64,000 bases of DNA from Pseudomonadota bacterium (lineage in GTDB: Bacteria; Pseudomonadota; Gammaproteobacteria; Burkholderiales; Gallionellaceae). A model generated the notes under the pieces. That model searched no databases. It was not told where the DNA came from and saw only the letters and a list, made by a program, of their open reading frames with translations. The stretch spans positions 1-64,000 of the forward strand of contig JAJYYO010000015.1 of the NCBI GenBank assembly GCA_021800795.1. Reading direction: 5' to 3'. Below, one piece after another: positions 10,733-24,379 of the stretch (the stretch's first letter is position 1; the number at the start of each line of letters is the position of its first letter). The position numbers and the translations under genes are program-made.

Positions 10733-12996
10733 TTTCTTTCAGGTGCAATCACTTCACGGTTTCCGTTGCTCTGCATCGCGGTCACGATGCCGGCCGCTTC
10801 CATCTGTTCGACCAGACGCGCGGCGCGGTTATAACCGATGCGCAGGTTGCGCTGCACCAGCGATATCGACGCGCGGCGGGACTTGACCACGATGTCCACC
10901 GCCTGGTCGTATAAAGGATCGGCCTCCGCATCCAGCGTCGGCCCGCCATCTCCACTACTGTCGCCCGCATCTTCCAGCGAATTGAGCACGCCGTCGATGT
11001 ACTGCGGTTCGCCGTGTTCCTTCAGATATTCGGTGATGCGATGCACTTCCTGATCGGAGACAAACGCGCCGTGCACCCGTTGCGGATAGCCCGTGCCGGG
11101 CGGCAAATACAGCATATCGCCCTGACCCAGCAAGGCTTCCGCACCCATCTGATCGAGGATGGTGCGCGAATCTATCTTGGATGACACCTGAAACGCCACC
11201 CGCGTCGGCACGTTGGCTTTTATCAGCCCCGTGATCACATCCACCGACGGGCGCTGGGTCGCCAGCACCAGATGGATGCCCGAGGCGCGCGCCTTCTGCG
11301 CCAGACGCGCGATCAGCTCTTCTATCTTCTTGCCGACCACCATCATCAGATCGGCCAGCTCGTCGATGAACACCACGATCAGCGGCAACTCTTCGAGCGC
11401 TTCCGGATCATCCGGCGTAAGCGAGAACGGATTGGTCAGCGGCTTGTCCGCCTTGATGGCTTCGCGCAGCTTCTGGTTGTAGCCTGCGATATTGCGCACG
11501 CCCAGCGCCGACATCAGCCGGTAACGCTTGTCCATTTCCTGCACGCACCAGTTAAGACCGGAAGCGGCCTGACGCATATCGGTTACCACCGGGCACAAGA
11601 GATGCGGGATGCCCTCATACACCGACAGCTCCAGCATCTTGGGATCGATCAGCAGCATGCGCACCTGCTCTGGCGTGGCCTTGTACAGTATGCTCAGGAT
11701 CATCGCATTGATCCCCACCGACTTGCCGGAACCCGTGGTGCCCGCCACCAGCACATGCGGCATTTTGGCCAGATCCGCCACCACCGGCTTGCCGGAAATG
11801 TCCTTGCCCATCGCCATGGTCAGCATGGAATGCATGTCGGCATACACCTGCGAGCTCAAAATTTCGGACAGCTGCACCATCTGCCGGCGGGCATTGGGCA
11901 ACTCCAGCGCCATGTAGGTTTTTCCAGGAATGGTTTCGACCAGACGGATGCTCACCACCGACAGCGCGCGCGCCAGATCGCGCACCAGATTGGTGATCTG
12001 GCTGCCCTTCACGCCGACTGCGGGCTCGATCTCGTAACGCGTGATCACCGGCCCAGGATAAGCGGCTACCACTTTGACTTCCACACCGAAGTCTTTCAGT
12101 TTCCGTTCAATCAGACGTGAGGTGAACTCCAGCATGTCGGCGGATACGGTCTCTACCTGCTGTGTCGCCGGATCAAGCAGATGCAACGGCGGCAAGGGCG
12201 AGTCCGGCATATCGTCGAACAGCGTGATCTGTTTTTCCTCTGCAACGCGCGCCGACTTGACCACTTCCGCGACAGGCATCTCGATGTGTATCGGCTGATG
12301 CACCTCGACGCGCTTCTTCTCCACCTCGACCACCGCACTGCGCTGACTGGTGGCCTGAAGACCGATGCGCCTGTCCTGACGGGTCTGCCGGAATTGCCGT
12401 ACCCAGCAGTAGGCCGCCTCCAACTGCGCGCCCAGCCAGTCCATGAAACGCAGCCACGACAGACCGCTGAACAGGCTGAAACTGGCCGCCATCAGGGCCA
12501 GCAGCAACAGGGTGGCGCCGGTAAAACCCAGCCAGCGCGTCAATGTATTGCCGATCAGCATGCCGAACATGCCGCCGGGGGCGAGCGGCAAGGGCACTTT
12601 AAGCGTGTGCAAACGGATCGCTTCGAGTGCGCTGCTGGACAGCAGCAGCAAAACAAAACCGATGACGGCAACCAGGAGCGTTCTTTTGCAAAAAACGCTG
12701 TCAACGCGCAATCTGCGATAACCTGCCCAGACTTGTTGCAGCATGAACAGCACCAGCCACCAGGCAGACACGCCAAACAGATAAAACAACAGGTCGGACA
12801 AATAAGCGCCCAGCACACCCGCCGGATTGCCGGTCTGTGTACCCGCACTGCTGTGCGACCAGGCAGTATCGGCCGGATGGTAGCCATACAGCGCCACCGT
12901 GAAATACAGCGCCAGCGCCGCCAGCAACAGCCAGCGCGATTCGCGCACCAGGCCGAACAACTTGCTTCCCGGCAAGTCGTCTGCTGCTTCAGCCAT
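10726..12996 (-). CDS. ftsK: DNA translocase FtsK
   Basis: A 756-residue septum-located DNA pump that coordinates cell division with chromosome dimer resolution. Four membrane segments occupy about residues 20-170, followed by a short linker. The RecA-like motor has Walker [15 protein letters not shown] (near residue 420) and Walker B-type [13 protein letters not shown]. The C-terminal gamma winged-helix domain (from [11 protein letters not shown]) recognises KOPS sites. The linker is much shorter than in E. coli, as is usual for this group. The start overlaps the end of the response-regulator gene by 8 bases. Confidence 0.96.
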
Positions 12997-13642
12997 TTGA
13001 CGCCCCGACCAGCCCCAGATGTTCGGCCACCCGCACCGCCTCCAGACGGCTGCTGACCTTCAGTGTCTGATACACCGCCGCCACGTGAATTTTAACGGTT
13101 CCTTCAGCCAGATGAATGTGCGATGCAATTTCCTTGTTGCTCATCCCGGTGCAGAGATGCTGCAAAACTTCCATCTGACGCGGCGTCAGCCCGTAGCTGT
13201 TGGTGTGCATGCTGCGCTTGTCCGGATGCCCGGTATCCAGCGCATGGTAACGCAGGATTTCCGGCGGCACATAGACCCCGCCGGACAGCACCAGATTCAG
13301 GGCATCCAGCATGGTCTGCGCGGTCGAACTTTTGCTGACAAAACCCGACGCTCCGTAATTCATTACCTTTTCCATATTTGAACTGGCTTCCTCTCCCGAC
13401 ACGACCACCACCGGAATATGCGGATAACGCTGATGAAAATAACTGACCGACTTTGGCCCGTCGCTGCCCGGCATATGCAAATCCAGCAGCGCCAGTTCCA
13501 GTTCGGGATGCAGCTCGGCCAGCTTTAACGCATCCTGAAAATTAGCCGCCTCCAATATTTCCACATCATCTGACAACTGTCGCAACACATAGCGCATTCC
13601 TTCCCGGAACAGCGCATGGTCATCGGCAAACAAAATCTTCAT
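12989..13642 (-). CDS. NarL/FixJ-family response regulator (orphan)
   Basis: A 217-residue two-domain transcription regulator. The receiver has acidic residues at D7-D8, phospho-acceptor D54 in LLDLHMPG and K104. A LuxR-type helix-turn-helix covers about 150-212 ([22 protein letters not shown]). No histidine kinase is adjacent, so its signal is unknown. It overlaps ftsK by 8 bases and is probably co-transcribed with it. Its strong GGGGGGAG ribosome site lies beside the 3' arm of a long inverted repeat (13650-13699), which could mask it. Confidence 0.9.
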
Positions 13643-19263: not shown

Positions 19264-19629
19264 CTACGCCGCCAGTTTTTTGATGCTTTCGAGTACAGCG
19301 TCGCCCTTGAAGGGCTTGACGATCCATCCCTTGATGCCGGAAGCCTTGCCGCGTTCTTTCATGCTCGGACTGCTTTCGGTCGTCAGCATGATGATATTGA
19401 CCGTGCTGTTACCCAGTTCGCCGCGAATCTTTTCGACCATGGTCAGTCCGTCCATATTGGGCATATTGATATCGCTCAGCACAAGCTTGATGCCGGGATC
19501 ACCCTTGATCTTGCTCAGCCCATCCTTGCCGTCCACAGCGGTCGCCACATCCAGCCCGCTCTTTTTCAAGAATCCTGCCACCTCGTCACGTACCGTGCTT
19601 GAATCATCCACAACAAGAATTTTTGCCAT
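19264..19629 (-). CDS. CheY-like single-domain response regulator
   Basis: A 121-residue stand-alone receiver. Acidic pocket D8-D9, phospho-acceptor D53 in LSDINMPNMDG, switch Thr at 83/84 and K105 in VKPF are all present, so it should be phosphorylatable. It is the last gene of the five-gene chemosensory-like unit running from 24379 and is convergent with comF (12 bases between stops). The likely donor is the CheA-like kinase at the start of the unit, and the CheX-domain proteins are candidate phosphatases. Confidence 0.92.
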   Translation of the reverse strand: MAKILVVDDSSTVRDEVAGFLKKSGLDVATAVDGKDGLSKIKGDPGIKLVLSDINMPNMDGLTMVEKIRGELGNSTVNIIMLTTESSPSMKERGKASGIKGWIVKPFKGDAVLESIKKLAA

Positions 19630-19648
19630 TTCGTTTCCTTAAAAGTTA

Positions 19649-20605
19649 TTAAAACAGTTCCAGTTCACCGGAATCAACGAACTCCTCCACATCGTGAGTG
19701 ATTTCCCTGAAGTCCTCCGGCGACCAGTTGAGATTGAAAATAAAGCGCTGATAGAGTTTCACCGTCCGACCGGTATGCTCATCCACCAGGGTATAGAGGA
19801 AGCATAGCTGGGGATTTTCCGTACCGAACGAGATGTATTTGTGCTTGTGATTGACAACCAGCGGAACCTGTATCTGATTACCTGACGAGCTTGTCGCATC
19901 GCCGATGTAACGGTTTTTGAATGACCCCCAAATCAGATTGGTGATTTCGCCTAACAGGCTGTTCACAGCCCGAAAGTTGGTGCCCACATCAGACGGACTG
20001 TAGCGACCCAGCACGTCAAGAATCGGCTCTTCCTCGGTTTGCAGCATCATGTAACCGCGGCACCAGTTACTCTCCAGCGGTATCAGGCTGAACACCTCGC
20101 CGAAAATGACACGGTCGCGAACGATATAAGGTGTACTCCAGGATATTGTCAGCTCCCTGAACTGGTTAGCCAGTACCGTTTCCGTAATTTCCGAAATGCC
20201 CCGCACCAGCGCGTTCGGATATACCAGGCTGAAGATGTATTCGTCTATCACGCGGCGCAGCGTGTTCATGTCGTCGGCCACATAAGCCGCACAAAACGCA
20301 GATCGTATGATTTCAGGCATATCATCCAGCGTTGCCTGACTTTCTCGACGAATAATGATGGGCAATTCGGGGCGGCAGGTATGTATCTTTAACGCGATTT
20401 CTGCATTTTCCCTGGCCGATCCACCGTAATTTTCGGAATAGAGTATCGCACCCAGATCGATGTTGGATTGCAGCACGGACATCAGACGATTCTTGCGCAC
20501 CTTGAGTGCGATAAGATTGTTGTTATCACAGAACGCCTTGATCGCCTCTGTATGCATCTGGCTATCATCAAGCACCAGCACCTTGCTGACAAGATTATTG
20601 CTCAT
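19649..20605 (-). CDS. Receiver-like domain fused to CheX-like domain
   Basis: A 318-residue protein. Residues 1-120 resemble a receiver (KVLVLDDSQMHTEAI at the start) but lack an obvious LxDxxMP phospho-acceptor segment, so this domain may be inactive. Residues about 130-310 resemble a CheX-type phosphatase domain (NSLLGEITNLIWGSFKN with the acidic/Asn helix). The ATG at 20605 is chosen because AAGGG lies 8 bases upstream; ATG 20620 is the alternative. The C-terminus DSGELELF closely resembles the TSGELEFF end of the neighbour upstream. Confidence 0.75.
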   Translation of the reverse strand: MSNNLVSKVLVLDDSQMHTEAIKAFCDNNNLIALKVRKNRLMSVLQSNIDLGAILYSENYGGSARENAEIALKIHTCRPELPIIIRRESQATLDDMPEIIRSAFCAAYVADDMNTLRRVIDEYIFSLVYPNALVRGISEITETVLANQFRELTISWSTPYIVRDRVIFGEVFSLIPLESNWCRGYMMLQTEEEPILDVLGRYSPSDVGTNFRAVNSLLGEITNLIWGSFKNRYIGDATSSSGNQIQVPLVVNHKHKYISFGTENPQLCFLYTLVDEHTGRTVKLYQRFIFNLNWSPEDFREITHDVEEFVDSGELELF

Positions 20606-20634
20606 TTTCATACCCTTCATAACGCCTGCCGATT

Positions 20635-21174
20635 TCAAAAAAACTCCAGTTCGCCGCTCGTGTCGATCGCATCGTTCAGATCGACAGCAAAATCTATCGG
20701 CGCATACCCGCACAGGCAAAGCGTCGCCTGCAGACGAACGGAATCGTTGATGGTGATGGCATGGCGAGACAGATACCCCGGTTTCAACTCATTCAGGAAG
20801 GGCAGACACCGTCCGCTCAAGGTATAGGGTGTGGACATCCCGAGATGAGGAAAATATCTCAACAACTCCTGGTTCATTGCACCGCTGCAAAGGTTGCCGA
20901 TTTCAGAGAAAAATTCCAGCAACGACTTGTCTGTGGTCTTGCTTAAAAAATAATTCCTCGTAGCCGAGTCTTCGCCGATATGAAAGATTGTCAAGACTCT
21001 GAACACCAGCGAGGAAATCGTCAGAACAACCATCTCTCTTTCTAAAAATTCGCTGTCTTTGCAATCGGTCATTTGTTCGATTACACAGCAATCGTCAGGA
21101 TTGAGAATAAGGCTTTTTTTGGCCGACTTACTGAAAATGTAATCGATACTTTGCTTGGATTGTTCGCTGATCAC
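20635..21174 (-). CDS. CheX-like chemotaxis phosphatase domain protein
   Basis: A 179-residue protein with a CheX/FliY-like core. FFSEIGNLCSGAMNQELLRYFP (about residues 88-109) fits the helix that carries the active-site acid and Asn in CheX. Such proteins dephosphorylate CheY-type receivers. Its last residues SGELEFF are repeated almost exactly at the end of the next gene, suggesting a shared docking tail. It stands between the MCP-tip protein and the receiver-CheX gene. Family assignment is by pattern only and more distant than for its neighbours. Confidence 0.65.
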   Translation of the reverse strand: MISEQSKQSIDYIFSKSAKKSLILNPDDCCVIEQMTDCKDSEFLEREMVVLTISSLVFRVLTIFHIGEDSATRNYFLSKTTDKSLLEFFSEIGNLCSGAMNQELLRYFPHLGMSTPYTLSGRCLPFLNELKPGYLSRHAITINDSVRLQATLCLCGYAPIDFAVDLNDAIDTSGELEFF

Positions 21175-21183
21175 GTTGTTTTC

Positions 21184-21951
21184 CTAGTGCAGGGCGGATC
21201 GGAGCTGACCAATTTTTGAATCCATAGCCGCAAATGCAGCCATCATCATCTTTCCGCTAGCCTGTATGTCCTGAAAGGTCGCCGTAGTAATCAGGTCATT
21301 CTTATTGAGACTTAGACCGTATTCCTGGGATAGCGCTTCCGAGCGTACCGCAAGGGCATTCACCTGTTCAGCGACAACTGCGAATCCGCGGCCCCACTCG
21401 CCTGCGCGCGCGGCCTCAATGGATGCGTTTAATGCAACCAGGATCACATGTTTGACTATGGACGCAAACTCTTTATTCTGCGTGCGCATGTGATAGTTTT
21501 GCTCCATCAGCGAATTCATCTCACCATGCCAATGCTCAAAAGTGATCGACACCTTTTTAAGCTGCGCAGACTCCTCCAGAATTTCCTTCATCTGTTGCAG
21601 CATTCCGGACTTGAGCTCCTCCTGCGCCGCTGTTGTACGGTGACGTTCATACTCAATGTCATTCTGCATCCCTGCAATACGCGAATTCAAGGAATCGACC
21701 AGCGCGCCCAGCTCTTCAGCTTTTGCCTGAAACGCCGCCTTTTCAGAATCAATCGCAACAATTTTTTCCTGGCATGCCGCAATTTCATCACTCATTTGCA
21801 GCCTGTTGCCATTCAATTCTGCCAGTTGAGCATCGAATGCCGCCTGCAAACCGTGTATATGATTTGCATGGCTCAATCTGAGTGCAAACCAGGTGATACC
21901 TGAGCAGAGCATACCGCCGAATAACGCACTGAAAATGTACTCCGTTATCAT
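21184..21951 (-). CDS. Membrane-anchored protein with MCP signalling-tip sequence
   Basis: A 255-residue protein. One membrane segment (about 5-25) is followed by a long coiled coil (35-165) and then the chemoreceptor hairpin tip [21 protein letters not shown] (174-194), the region that binds CheA and CheW in normal receptors. There is no periplasmic sensor domain and no HAMP, and the coiled coil after the tip is short. It may be a scaffold that joins the adjacent CheA-like kinase rather than a receptor. It lies 16 bases downstream of that kinase gene. Confidence 0.82.
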
Positions 21952-21967
21952 GATCGACTACCCAAAA

Positions 21968-24379
21968 TTACGCCTGTTTGAAAACAATCGCATCATTAGT
22001 GGCAACTTCCAGCAAAGTTTCATCAAATTCATGCTGATGATGGAACTCGAACCCTTCGACACTTTCCACCAGCGCTTCCGGCAGACACACGATAATTTCA
22101 AATTGACGGAAGTCTGCACCGACCTTGTCGTCGCTAAATTGAATTTTGATCGTGCCATTTTCCCGTCTGACAAAATCCCGCACCGCATCCATACCGACAC
22201 CGCGCCCCGAAACCTCCGTCACTTTTTCGGCAGTGGAAAATCCGGGAAGAAATATCAGGTTCGCTACTTGCTCATCGGACAGTTGATCCTCTGGATTGAT
22301 GAGTTGCTTTTCCATAGCGGTGTTGCGTATGTGCGCCAGAGCGAGCCCGCGTCCATCATCGCCCAGTTTGATTTGCAGCATTCCCTCATTTACATCCATC
22401 TGCAAACTGATCGTTCCGGCAGCAGGTTTGTTTGCCGCAAGACGCTCTTCGACACTCTCAAGACCGTGATCCGTCGCGTTCCTCAGCAGATGCATGAATA
22501 CGTTTTTCAGCATGCCGCCAGCCTGGTTATGCACAACGTAACCGTTATCCTGAACATCGATGATAGGCGGTAATTTACCCAGTTCCATGGCAAGCTCAGG
22601 CAGAGAATCGAAAACCCCTTCCAGCGTCTCAACGAGGCGTTCCGTGCCCAGCAAACGCAGGGTCTTGCGCACGGCATCGTGGGCTGCGCGCAGTTCGTCG
22701 AGATTGCCTGAAGTGGCCTTTTCCAGCCGATGTATCGTTTCCACAATCTGCTGCCTGTCCACCATCAGAAAATGCTCGATCCCGCCACGACGTCCCGGCC
22801 CTTTACGCCCCAAACTGAACTCGTTGATCCTGGCGTAGTATTCAACCGTTTCTTTAACCGCAATCAACTCATCCATCAGGGTCATCTGATCCCATGCAAT
22901 ATCAGGACGCGGTTCGCGCAGTTCAACATACGATTGCTCGACCCCGTGAACAATATTGGTCAGGTGTTTCAGTCCATAGGTACGCGCATTGCCCTTGATG
23001 GTGTGCATATTGCGAAATAATTTCGTCACAACATCTGAATTTTGCTGAGTGTGCTCGCGAATCAAGAGTTCGTTTTCTTCCACGAATCTCAAGGAACTGT
23101 TGATGAACTCATGGAATTTCTCCTGAGTTACCGCAAGGATTTCACCGATAATTTCCAGCTCGCGCTTTTGACTGTTTGCTTCCGCAGCCAGTGCGCGCAA
23201 TTCGGTTACATCGCGAATGCACAGCATCAATCTGACGGTGGTATCCGCATCATCGGTTATTGGCGACCAGCTCAAGTCGAGAATTTTTGTGCTGCCATCG
23301 TTCATCTTCTTTTCGATTTCACTGACCAGCAGATGCTTGTTGAATTCAAAGTTCATCGCATCTTCGCCGATGCAAGCGCCGGCAACCGCTTCGAGTTGCG
23401 ACAATTCGTCAACACCGAGCGTTGTATTGCTGAAGACGAGGCTCATGAAATCGCTACCCTCGATCTCTCTGGTATCGAAGATGGTTTCAAGATAGGCGGA
23501 ATATTCCGGATGCACCTTGTAGGCTTGAGTAATAGTCAGGATACCTTGCGGCATATTTTGCAGCATTGTCTGAATATCGTTGGTTTTCTGCTTCAGCAGC
23601 AGCGAATTTTCTTCAATCTTGCCTATCATCATATTGAAGGCCACGATGGACTTGCCGATTTCATCCAGACGTTTGACCGGAACGCGGCGTGTAAAATCCT
23701 GGCTAGTTGCAATCTCGCTCGTCGTAGCCTGCATCCGGCTTATTGGATTAATGATTTGACGGTACAAAATGATGCCAAAAACAGACAGAAGTACAACCAG
23801 AACAGCCGACACTGCTGCCACGCCGGTAGCGGTGCGCGAAAGGTTGCTGTTAAGAACGGAAATTGCAGCATCCTTTTCACGGGTTTTCTCTATTCTCAGC
23901 GTGTCGACTATCTGTTGCAACTCGCGTTGCAACACCACAACGTTGGAATAGTAAGCCGCACCGGCAAGATCGGCCTGTCCGGCCAGTTTAAATTTTACGG
24001 TATCGTCGATCGCGCCAAAGTATTCACTCAGATTATCCTTTGCCTGTTCTACCAGACCCTGTTGAGTCTTATCGGCAGCATGAGCCAATTGAAAATCGAT
24101 GCCTTCCTTGAGCTTAGCCTTGCTAACCGCAAGTTTTTCCGAAGCCTGCGCAGCTAGATTGGCATCGGGTTCAGAGATCAACGCCATCGTTACGAGTTGC
24201 ACTTCCTTCACTTGTGAGACGAGATCCGCGGTTGCAAGCGCGCTGGGCACTACATTTTCCGTAACATTTTTCACCTCGGCAGCATTAATCCTCGCCTGGT
24301 AAATGGAATAGCCGCCAACGGTGAAAATGGCAAAGACCGATAAAATAATCAGCAAGGTAATGCGATGTCGAATACTCAT
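21968..24379 (-). CDS. CheA-like membrane histidine kinase (sensor-HAMP-PAS-Hpt-HATPase)
   Basis: An 803-residue protein. It has two membrane segments (about 8-28 and 187-207) around a helical periplasmic sensor, HAMP (208-262), and a PAS-like region (268-395). An Hpt domain follows with phospho-His H459 in NMHTIKGNARTYGL. The CheA-like ATPase has N634 in HLLRNATDHGL, G1 DDGRG (674-678) and G2 GRGVGMD (725-731). There is no C-terminal CheW-like domain and no receiver, so it is not a standard CheA. It heads a five-gene unit whose last member is a free CheY. The role (motility, surface or another output) is not visible. Confidence 0.88.
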   Translation of the reverse strand: MSIRHRITLLIILSVFAIFTVGGYSIYQARINAAEVKNVTENVVPSALATADLVSQVKEVQLVTMALISEPDANLAAQASEKLAVSKAKLKEGIDFQLAHAADKTQQGLVEQAKDNLSEYFGAIDDTVKFKLAGQADLAGAAYYSNVVVLQRELQQIVDTLRIEKTREKDAAISVLNSNLSRTATGVAAVSAVLVVLLSVFGIILYRQIINPISRMQATTSEIATSQDFTRRVPVKRLDEIGKSIVAFNMMIGKIEENSLLLKQKTNDIQTMLQNMPQGILTITQAYKVHPEYSAYLETIFDTREIEGSDFMSLVFSNTTLGVDELSQLEAVAGACIGEDAMNFEFNKHLLVSEIEKKMNDGSTKILDLSWSPITDDADTTVRLMLCIRDVTELRALAAEANSQKRELEIIGEILAVTQEKFHEFINSSLRFVEENELLIREHTQQNSDVVTKLFRNMHTIKGNARTYGLKHLTNIVHGVEQSYVELREPRPDIAWDQMTLMDELIAVKETVEYYARINEFSLGRKGPGRRGGIEHFLMVDRQQIVETIHRLEKATSGNLDELRAAHDAVRKTLRLLGTERLVETLEGVFDSLPELAMELGKLPPIIDVQDNGYVVHNQAGGMLKNVFMHLLRNATDHGLESVEERLAANKPAAGTISLQMDVNEGMLQIKLGDDGRGLALAHIRNTAMEKQLINPEDQLSDEQVANLIFLPGFSTAEKVTEVSGRGVGMDAVRDFVRRENGTIKIQFSDDKVGADFRQFEIIVCLPEALVESVEGFEFHHQHEFDETLLEVATNDAIVFKQA

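Follow-up and report, generated by a model that had tools for sequence, protein, structure and literature searches.

Genes of the locus

We analyzed a 64,000-nucleotide (nt) stretch of DNA (hereafter, the window) from a Gallionellaceae bacterium (assembly GCA_021800795.1, contig JAJYYO010000015.1, positions 1–64,000), in which an earlier note had described a non-canonical five-gene chemosensory-like operon at positions 19264–24379. Five open reading frames (ORFs), all of them intact, were present there on the minus strand in a single close-packed operon. In order of transcription, they encode a membrane histidine kinase of 803 amino acids (aa) (K, 24379–21968), a membrane protein carrying the signalling tip of methyl-accepting chemotaxis proteins (MCPs) (M, 21951–21184), a 179-aa CheX/CheC-fold protein with a GTG start (X1, 21174–20635), a degenerate receiver joined to a CheX domain (X2, 20605–19649), and a 121-aa single-domain CheY-like response regulator (Y, 19629–19264). 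The intergenic gaps, taken from the coordinates with the X2 start at 20605, are 16 nt (K/M), 9 nt (M/X1), 29 nt (X1/X2), and 19 nt (X2/Y). The earlier call of the X2 gene was correct except for its start, a TTG at 20719 that falls within the upstream gene, would give 38 extra residues, and is probably too early; we set the start at the likelier ATG (20605) because, in the alignment, conservation among orthologues begins at approximately MxxxxxxxxLVSKVLVLD.

The domains of K (21968–24379) were assigned from Pfam, a structural model, and alignments. Pfam identified 4HB_MCP_1, HAMP, Hpt, and HATPase_c in the window protein, with neither a CheW domain nor a receiver, which supports the earlier description of a kinase that lacks CheW and itself senses. 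From the N-terminus, the protein comprises a four-helix-bundle sensor with hydrophobic segments near residues 1–28 and 180–213, HAMP (205–256), a PAS-like unit (~270–390), Hpt (440–506, with the phosphoacceptor His459 encoded at 23003–23005), putative P3-like helices, and HATPase (624–758), with no CheW-like (P5) domain. The PAS domain of the earlier annotation is weakly supported: there was no PAS match in the window protein, orthologues matched PAS (6/13, best E 7.8e-4), PAS_4 (3/13), or PAS_9 (2/13), and the model shows an alpha/beta unit at about residues 279–390. HAMP, Hpt, and HATPase were each found in all 13 aligned family members, with 4HB_MCP_1 in 12 and TarH in one (in the L021 kinase, TarH scores best and 4HB matches as well). 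No CheW family match was found in these 13 members or in five kinases scanned singly. All 16 full-length kinases examined retain the phosphoacceptor His together with the H, N, and G boxes (those of L019, L022, L037/L038, and L047, which are split, cut, or truncated, are excluded). Only 44–85 residues follow the GRGVG motif in these 16 proteins, too few for a CheW (P5) domain to fit.

Compared with Escherichia coli CheA, the K profile aligned to P1 (9–108) and to residues 288–494 (the end of P3 plus P4), and to nothing beyond; the E-value against CheA alone was 2.7e-52, and BLASTP identity reached 46.7% over K residues 628–747. Judged from these alignments, the Hpt and P4 parts of K descend from CheA, as does, putatively, the P3 part. 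The P3 dimerisation part is covered by the profile alignment from CheA residue 288 onward, and model residues 530–543, just before it, score below 50 (mean pLDDT of the model 79, pTM 0.39). A Foldseek search with this model placed a WalK model at rank 1 and matched P3P4 and P4 structures of CheA interspersed with various other sensor kinases. K has in common with CheA a phosphoacceptor Hpt domain, a HATPase of the CheA type, and putative P3-like helices; it differs in having its own membrane sensor (4HB/HAMP/PAS-like) and in lacking P2 and CheW/P5. A survey reports a CheW domain in 100% of 13,673 CheA sequences (PMC10782961), a set from which CheW-less proteins may have been left out. Because it has no CheW domain, K falls outside that set and, so defined, is CheA-derived rather than a CheA. 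More distant kinases share with K only the part from profile position ~254 on; neither HAMP nor 4HB was matched in those of L048 and L076, and that of L050 carries an N-terminal PAS_3 domain in place of the usual sensor. The sensor is thus exchangeable, whereas the core of PAS-like, Hpt, and ATPase parts is not.

M (21184–21951) has a single N-terminal hydrophobic segment, a coiled-coil-like stretch, and an MCP signalling tip at residues 162–211, which corresponds in Pfam to positions 42–91 of the 172 in the MCP signalling profile; the rest of the protein matched coiled-coil families weakly. No ligand-binding, HAMP, or other receptor domain was found by Pfam, in agreement with the sensor-less MCP-tip protein proposed before. 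In the alignment, the tip hairpin core is kept (LNA.IEAAR.G..GRGF..VA), whereas the segment leading into it is altered (KHVILV in M, FQTNIL in Tar). Relative to Tar/Tsr-type MCPs, with which it shares the tip, M has a short post-tip part that includes an invariant segment of its own at residues 222–235 (TTxTFQDxQAxGxM); matches of MCPs to the M profile end by position 223 in the five genomes searched. This segment (21247–21288) contains the FQD of the CheZ active-site sequence (FQDLTGQ) but not its catalytic Gln. A CheZ-type phosphatase activity of M through this motif is not supported, given that the position of the catalytic Gln is Ser/Gly in M (FQDLTGQ in CheZ, FQDIQAS in M).

The X1 window protein (20635–21174) alone had no Pfam or NCBIfam match. 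Among its orthologues, 11 of 13 matched Pfam CheX at E-values up to 1 (best 3.3e-7), and the X1 profile had six weak matches in the PDB (best E 0.017), all to CheX/CheC proteins (one termed a ‘putative chemotaxis protein’). The predicted structure (mean pLDDT 87.5; last eight residues <50) had Thermotoga maritima CheX as its first PDB match, with chains of CheX, CheC, FliY, and the flagellar C-ring (FliM-type) at ranks 1–33 (best E 1.1e-7; TM 0.37–0.62 by query length). At the level of prediction, a CheX/CheC fold is confirmed, in line with the earlier CheX-like assignment, and the alternative that X1 is unrelated to CheX was ruled out by the predicted fold and the orthologue matches. In common with the CheX/CheC phosphatases of known structure (T. 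maritima, Borrelia, Vibrio, and Shewanella), X1 has the fold and the ExxN active-site motif (E91/N94, 20893–20904), which is kept in 19/19 X1 proteins.

The C-terminal half of X2 (19649–20605; CheX domain at residues 172–270) matched CheX in Pfam, as did 9/9 orthologues, and its profile reached E 4.3e-8 in the PDB. The ExxN motif (E220/N223, 19937–19948) is invariant in the nine X2 sequences aligned. With ExxN kept in both proteins and the X1 fold confirmed by the model, the proposal of two CheX-type proteins for one CheY was upheld. The degenerate receiver at residues ~1–120 of X2, absent from the known CheX/CheC phosphatases, shows similarity to Y across 68 columns (hhalign probability 72.7). 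Of 14 X2 receivers, 12 lack the acceptor Asp and all 14 lack both active-site residues, Thr and Lys, in one MAFFT alignment that is poor near the Lys. The receiver–CheX fusion described earlier therefore stands for its CheX half, and its receiver is, by sequence, very probably not phosphorylatable. An Asp occupies the acceptor position only in the X2 receivers of L048 and L076, which lack the active-site Lys. X1 and X2 are remotely alike (hhalign probability 29.4, with the tail included in the alignment).

Y (19264–19629) was identified as a CheY, as it had been before, by its Response_reg match in Pfam. It has D8/D9, D53 (19471–19473), T83, and K105, and this D/D/D/T/K set is kept in 7/7 Y proteins compared; by these residues, Y is a canonical CheY. 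Its identity to the nearest host CheY is only 46%.

When E. coli CheA, CheW, CheR, CheB, CheY, CheZ, and Tar were compared by BLAST with the window ORFs, only K, M, Y, and a response regulator at 12989–13642 were matched. The reported absence of CheW, CheR, and CheB from the window thus holds in this search; flagellar genes, also reported absent, were not profile-searched. Ten CheW-domain matches on four other contigs of the same genome indicate that ordinary chemosensory systems exist elsewhere in it.

Distribution and gene order

The unit was found in 20 genomes from at least seven families, whole in 11 and partial in nine. These counts leave out L023–L025 (short matches around HAMP), G125/L036 (sensor region only, in a 956-aa protein), and L010 and L011 (the same places as L037 and L035); L077–L079 were found after the counts were made. 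Counting the genome of the window itself, X1 was detected in 3/121 relatives by single-sequence search and in 5/369 genomes of the class by profile search. K (E up to 1e-80) was detected in 6/199 relatives, one of these six by the sensor part only. A scan of genome contigs for K gave 14 loci, of which 11 were true relatives, in records named Janthinobacterium, Oxalobacteraceae, Oxalicibacterium, Burkholderiaceae, Trinickia, Paludibacterium, Formivibrio, and Proteobacteria. Among 72,556 plasmid records, X2 was found in six and X1 in seven, which adds Caballeronia and Burkholderia megareplicons; Caballeronia sp. SBC2 carries the five genes in full.

The order K-M-X1-X2-Y is shared by the window, L037, L035, L012, L021, L048, L050, and L076, and the other loci show K-X2-Y-M-X1 (L016, L020, L034), K-M-X1-Y (L013, L014, L015, L017, L019), K-Y-M-X1 (L022), K-X2-Y (L033), M-X1-X2-Y (L049/L070), or a truncated K-M-X1 (L047); a contig end falls inside K in L037 and L022. 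Gene order is thus shuffled as the blocks K, M-X1, and X2-Y, and the genes of the latter two always stay together: M immediately precedes X1 in 19/19 X1 loci (L076 and the 18 whose tails were scored), and X2 immediately precedes Y in the 13 loci having both. M, to which the earlier note had given a putative scaffold role, is paired in gene order with X1, not with K. Genome G067 keeps K-X2-Y, has no M-like best match, and does not appear in the listed X1 matches.

No CheR or CheW match was obtained by BLAST in the 21 stretches compared, and CheB matched only one ORF, through its receiver part. The unit does not contain the CheA, CheW, and MCP core of canonical chemosensory operons (F, Tfp, and ACF classes). 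All-against-all BLAST of the ORFs in 19 stretches revealed no evident conserved flanking partner; the clusters present in at least three loci consisted of ORFs that lie antisense to the module or overlap it in other frames, ordinary MCPs with the ORFs antisense to them, and two small mixed clusters (five and three loci). In open-access literature, and with the search terms used, we found no description of the gene set or of the tail described below; subscription papers were outside the scope of this search.

A lone K lies in genome G571 (L018:5723–8218), away from the complete module of the same genome (L076), whose kinase has a different N-terminal part. In genome G429 (L047:8718–9620), the kinase frame ends after ~300 residues, M is directly next, and ORFs that by eye resemble transposases lie downstream.

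A shared C-terminal tail

X1 and X2 end in the same motif, GELELF or a close variant, a feature that the earlier note had missed and that distinguishes both from the known CheX/CheC phosphatases. In the window, the tails are GELEFF-stop in X1 (20635–20655) and GELELF-stop in X2 (19649–19669), both on the minus strand and identified by alignment and pattern search. The motif was present in 18/18 X1 and 13/13 X2 proteins (L076, found later, has both tails as well), with exact G[ED]LE[LF]F-stop endings in 15 X1 and 11 X2 and close variants in three and two, respectively. By position, the consensus G, E, L, E, L, and F were found in 18, 15, 17, 18, 14, and 18 X1 proteins and in 13, 13, 13, 12, 10, and 13 X2 proteins, one X2 copy having an extra Lys after the tail. 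The ten residues upstream are variable, with the commonest residue in 3–9 of the 18 X1 and 2–10 of the 13 X2 sequences.

In the whole genome that contains the window, GELE[LF]F-stop occurs twice, both times at this locus (reversed control: 0). The wider pattern G[ED]LE[LF]F gave 17 raw matches in the 369 genomes of the class (reversed control: 8), two of which terminate in TGG, which is not a stop codon. Among the 15 true-stop matches, nine end ORFs of at least 60 aa, all of them X1 or X2 (one an extra X2 away from any module), and six end ORFs of at most 38 codons. That both proteins share this tail suggests a private docking signal.

Regarding the partner of the tail, Y is a first guess by analogy with CheZ, an unrelated phosphatase whose binding to phosphorylated CheY is reported to depend chiefly on a short, flexibly tethered C-terminal helix (PMC1447658). 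The comparison is one of function only: CheZ ends in VDDLLDSLGF, which is acidic-hydrophobic with a final Phe, and no CheZ domain match was obtained. The face of Y that would correspond to the CheZ/FliM-like peptide site (alpha4-beta5-alpha5) is not better conserved than the other elements compared (15/31 vs. 32/64 invariant positions), so Y is a weak candidate and the tail may bind K or M instead.

Two side observations concern similar endings in genome G430. A second X2-like protein (L069:8897–9871) has a GELEFF tail, and its neighbours are another sensor kinase and response regulator rather than a module. The M protein (L050:10081–10896) ends in DFELDF, recalling the GELELF tail.

Proposed pathway and alternative explanations

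CheA ordinarily works via CheW and receptor arrays. For the five genes described here, we lean toward a self-contained pathway from a CheA-derived kinase to CheY, with two CheX-type phosphatases that bear a C-terminal docking tag and with M anchoring X1. K would read a signal through its periplasmic bundle, HAMP, and PAS-like parts, would use its CheA-type ATPase domain, for which the residues are present, to phosphorylate itself at His459 of the Hpt domain, and would pass the phosphate to Asp53 of Y. The term ‘phosphorelay’, used in the earlier note, is too generous, given that the anatomy is that of direct Hpt-to-CheY transfer, as in CheA. X1 and X2 would then dephosphorylate Y, an activity predicted from their fold or profile and the ExxN motif. 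Phosphatases of the CheX type are reported to reach into the receiver with one acidic and one amide residue (PMC3035606), and both residues are invariant in the X1 and X2 sequences aligned. The conserved GELELF tag may hold both proteins near their substrate or a common partner, M could keep X1 at the membrane, as its gene pairing suggests, and the output would most likely be the flagellar motor or switch. This last step is suggestive only, on the basis of co-occurrence: FliM is encoded in 20/20 host genomes vs. 190/369 genomes in the class.

The module is a small conserved signalling unit built of chemotaxis parts without the usual adaptor CheW. A conserved CheA relative that senses through a membrane domain of its own would show how the core of a chemosensory system can return to, or derive from, a kinase that senses directly. 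In cells with several chemosensory systems, the shared tag would offer a small and easily mutated handle on phosphatase specificity for one CheY. A more ambitious version is tentative and in our estimate more probably wrong than right: the module would be a distinct chemosensory class without a receptor–CheW–CheA array, in which a transmembrane CheA senses directly and a private GELELF peptide code, read by one module partner, gathers two different CheX-type phosphatases, one of which is tethered through a receptor tip converted into a membrane adaptor.

Several observations weigh against the self-contained pathway. CheW is encoded in 20/20 host genomes, so that the module may be linked to normal arrays, and the hosts are mutually related, so that the co-occurrence with FliM lacks phylogenetic independence. 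Upstream of K, no candidate sigma-28 promoter stood clearly above shuffled sequences (16 loci, best p 0.11). X2 does not lie between X1 and Y in five loci and is not essential at the locus, and G436 has M-X1-X2-Y without an adjoining K (sought beside the locus only). The poor conservation of the candidate peptide face of Y, given above, counts on the same side. The pathway is deduced from sequence, predicted structure, and co-occurrence.

The module might instead be an accessory input to an ordinary array, in which the M tip joins receptor trimers or binds CheW and carries X1 in, and K feeds a CheY pool shared with CheA. The ubiquity of CheW among the hosts would suit this arrangement, as would the tip residues kept by M, the further MCP-sized proteins matched by the M profile in the five genomes searched, the Tar-like MCP gene in 7/21 stretches (L016, L020, L021, L033, L035, L047, and L050), and, in G067, a true CheA (1004 aa, CheW domain included) encoded on the contig of the module (in a stretch outside the 21). 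However, K lacks the P5 domain required for a seat in the array, the pre-tip segment of M is changed from that of Tar, the C-terminal segment of M is not shared by the MCP matches in the five genomes searched, and the nearest host CheY is only 46% identical to Y; we regard this alternative as unlikely. X1 and X2 could also be non-catalytic sequestering or scaffold proteins of the CheX fold, recruited by the tag to K or M, the X2 receiver being dead. The tag is common to both proteins and separate from the catalytic motif, and the X2 receiver has lost its acceptor Asp and active-site residues as counted above, but a non-catalytic protein need not keep ExxN, and the pair is invariant in 19/19 X1 and the nine X2 sequences aligned, which makes this explanation improbable.

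That the unit is a decayed fragment or remnant of a normal che operon, in line with the missing CheW, CheR, and CheB and with normal systems elsewhere in the genome, is highly improbable. The frames are intact, the catalytic residues are kept, and the set recurs in 20 genomes (whole in 11). In the 21 stretches compared, BLAST matched neither CheR nor CheW, and it matched CheB only through the receiver part of a single ORF. The complete set, conserved across families, refutes the fragment, so that the earlier view of the unit as something other than a piece of a che operon withstood the search for its gene order in other genomes. Apart from these comparisons, flagellar and CheW matches, not used as evidence, were seen on the long contig that carries the G571 module.

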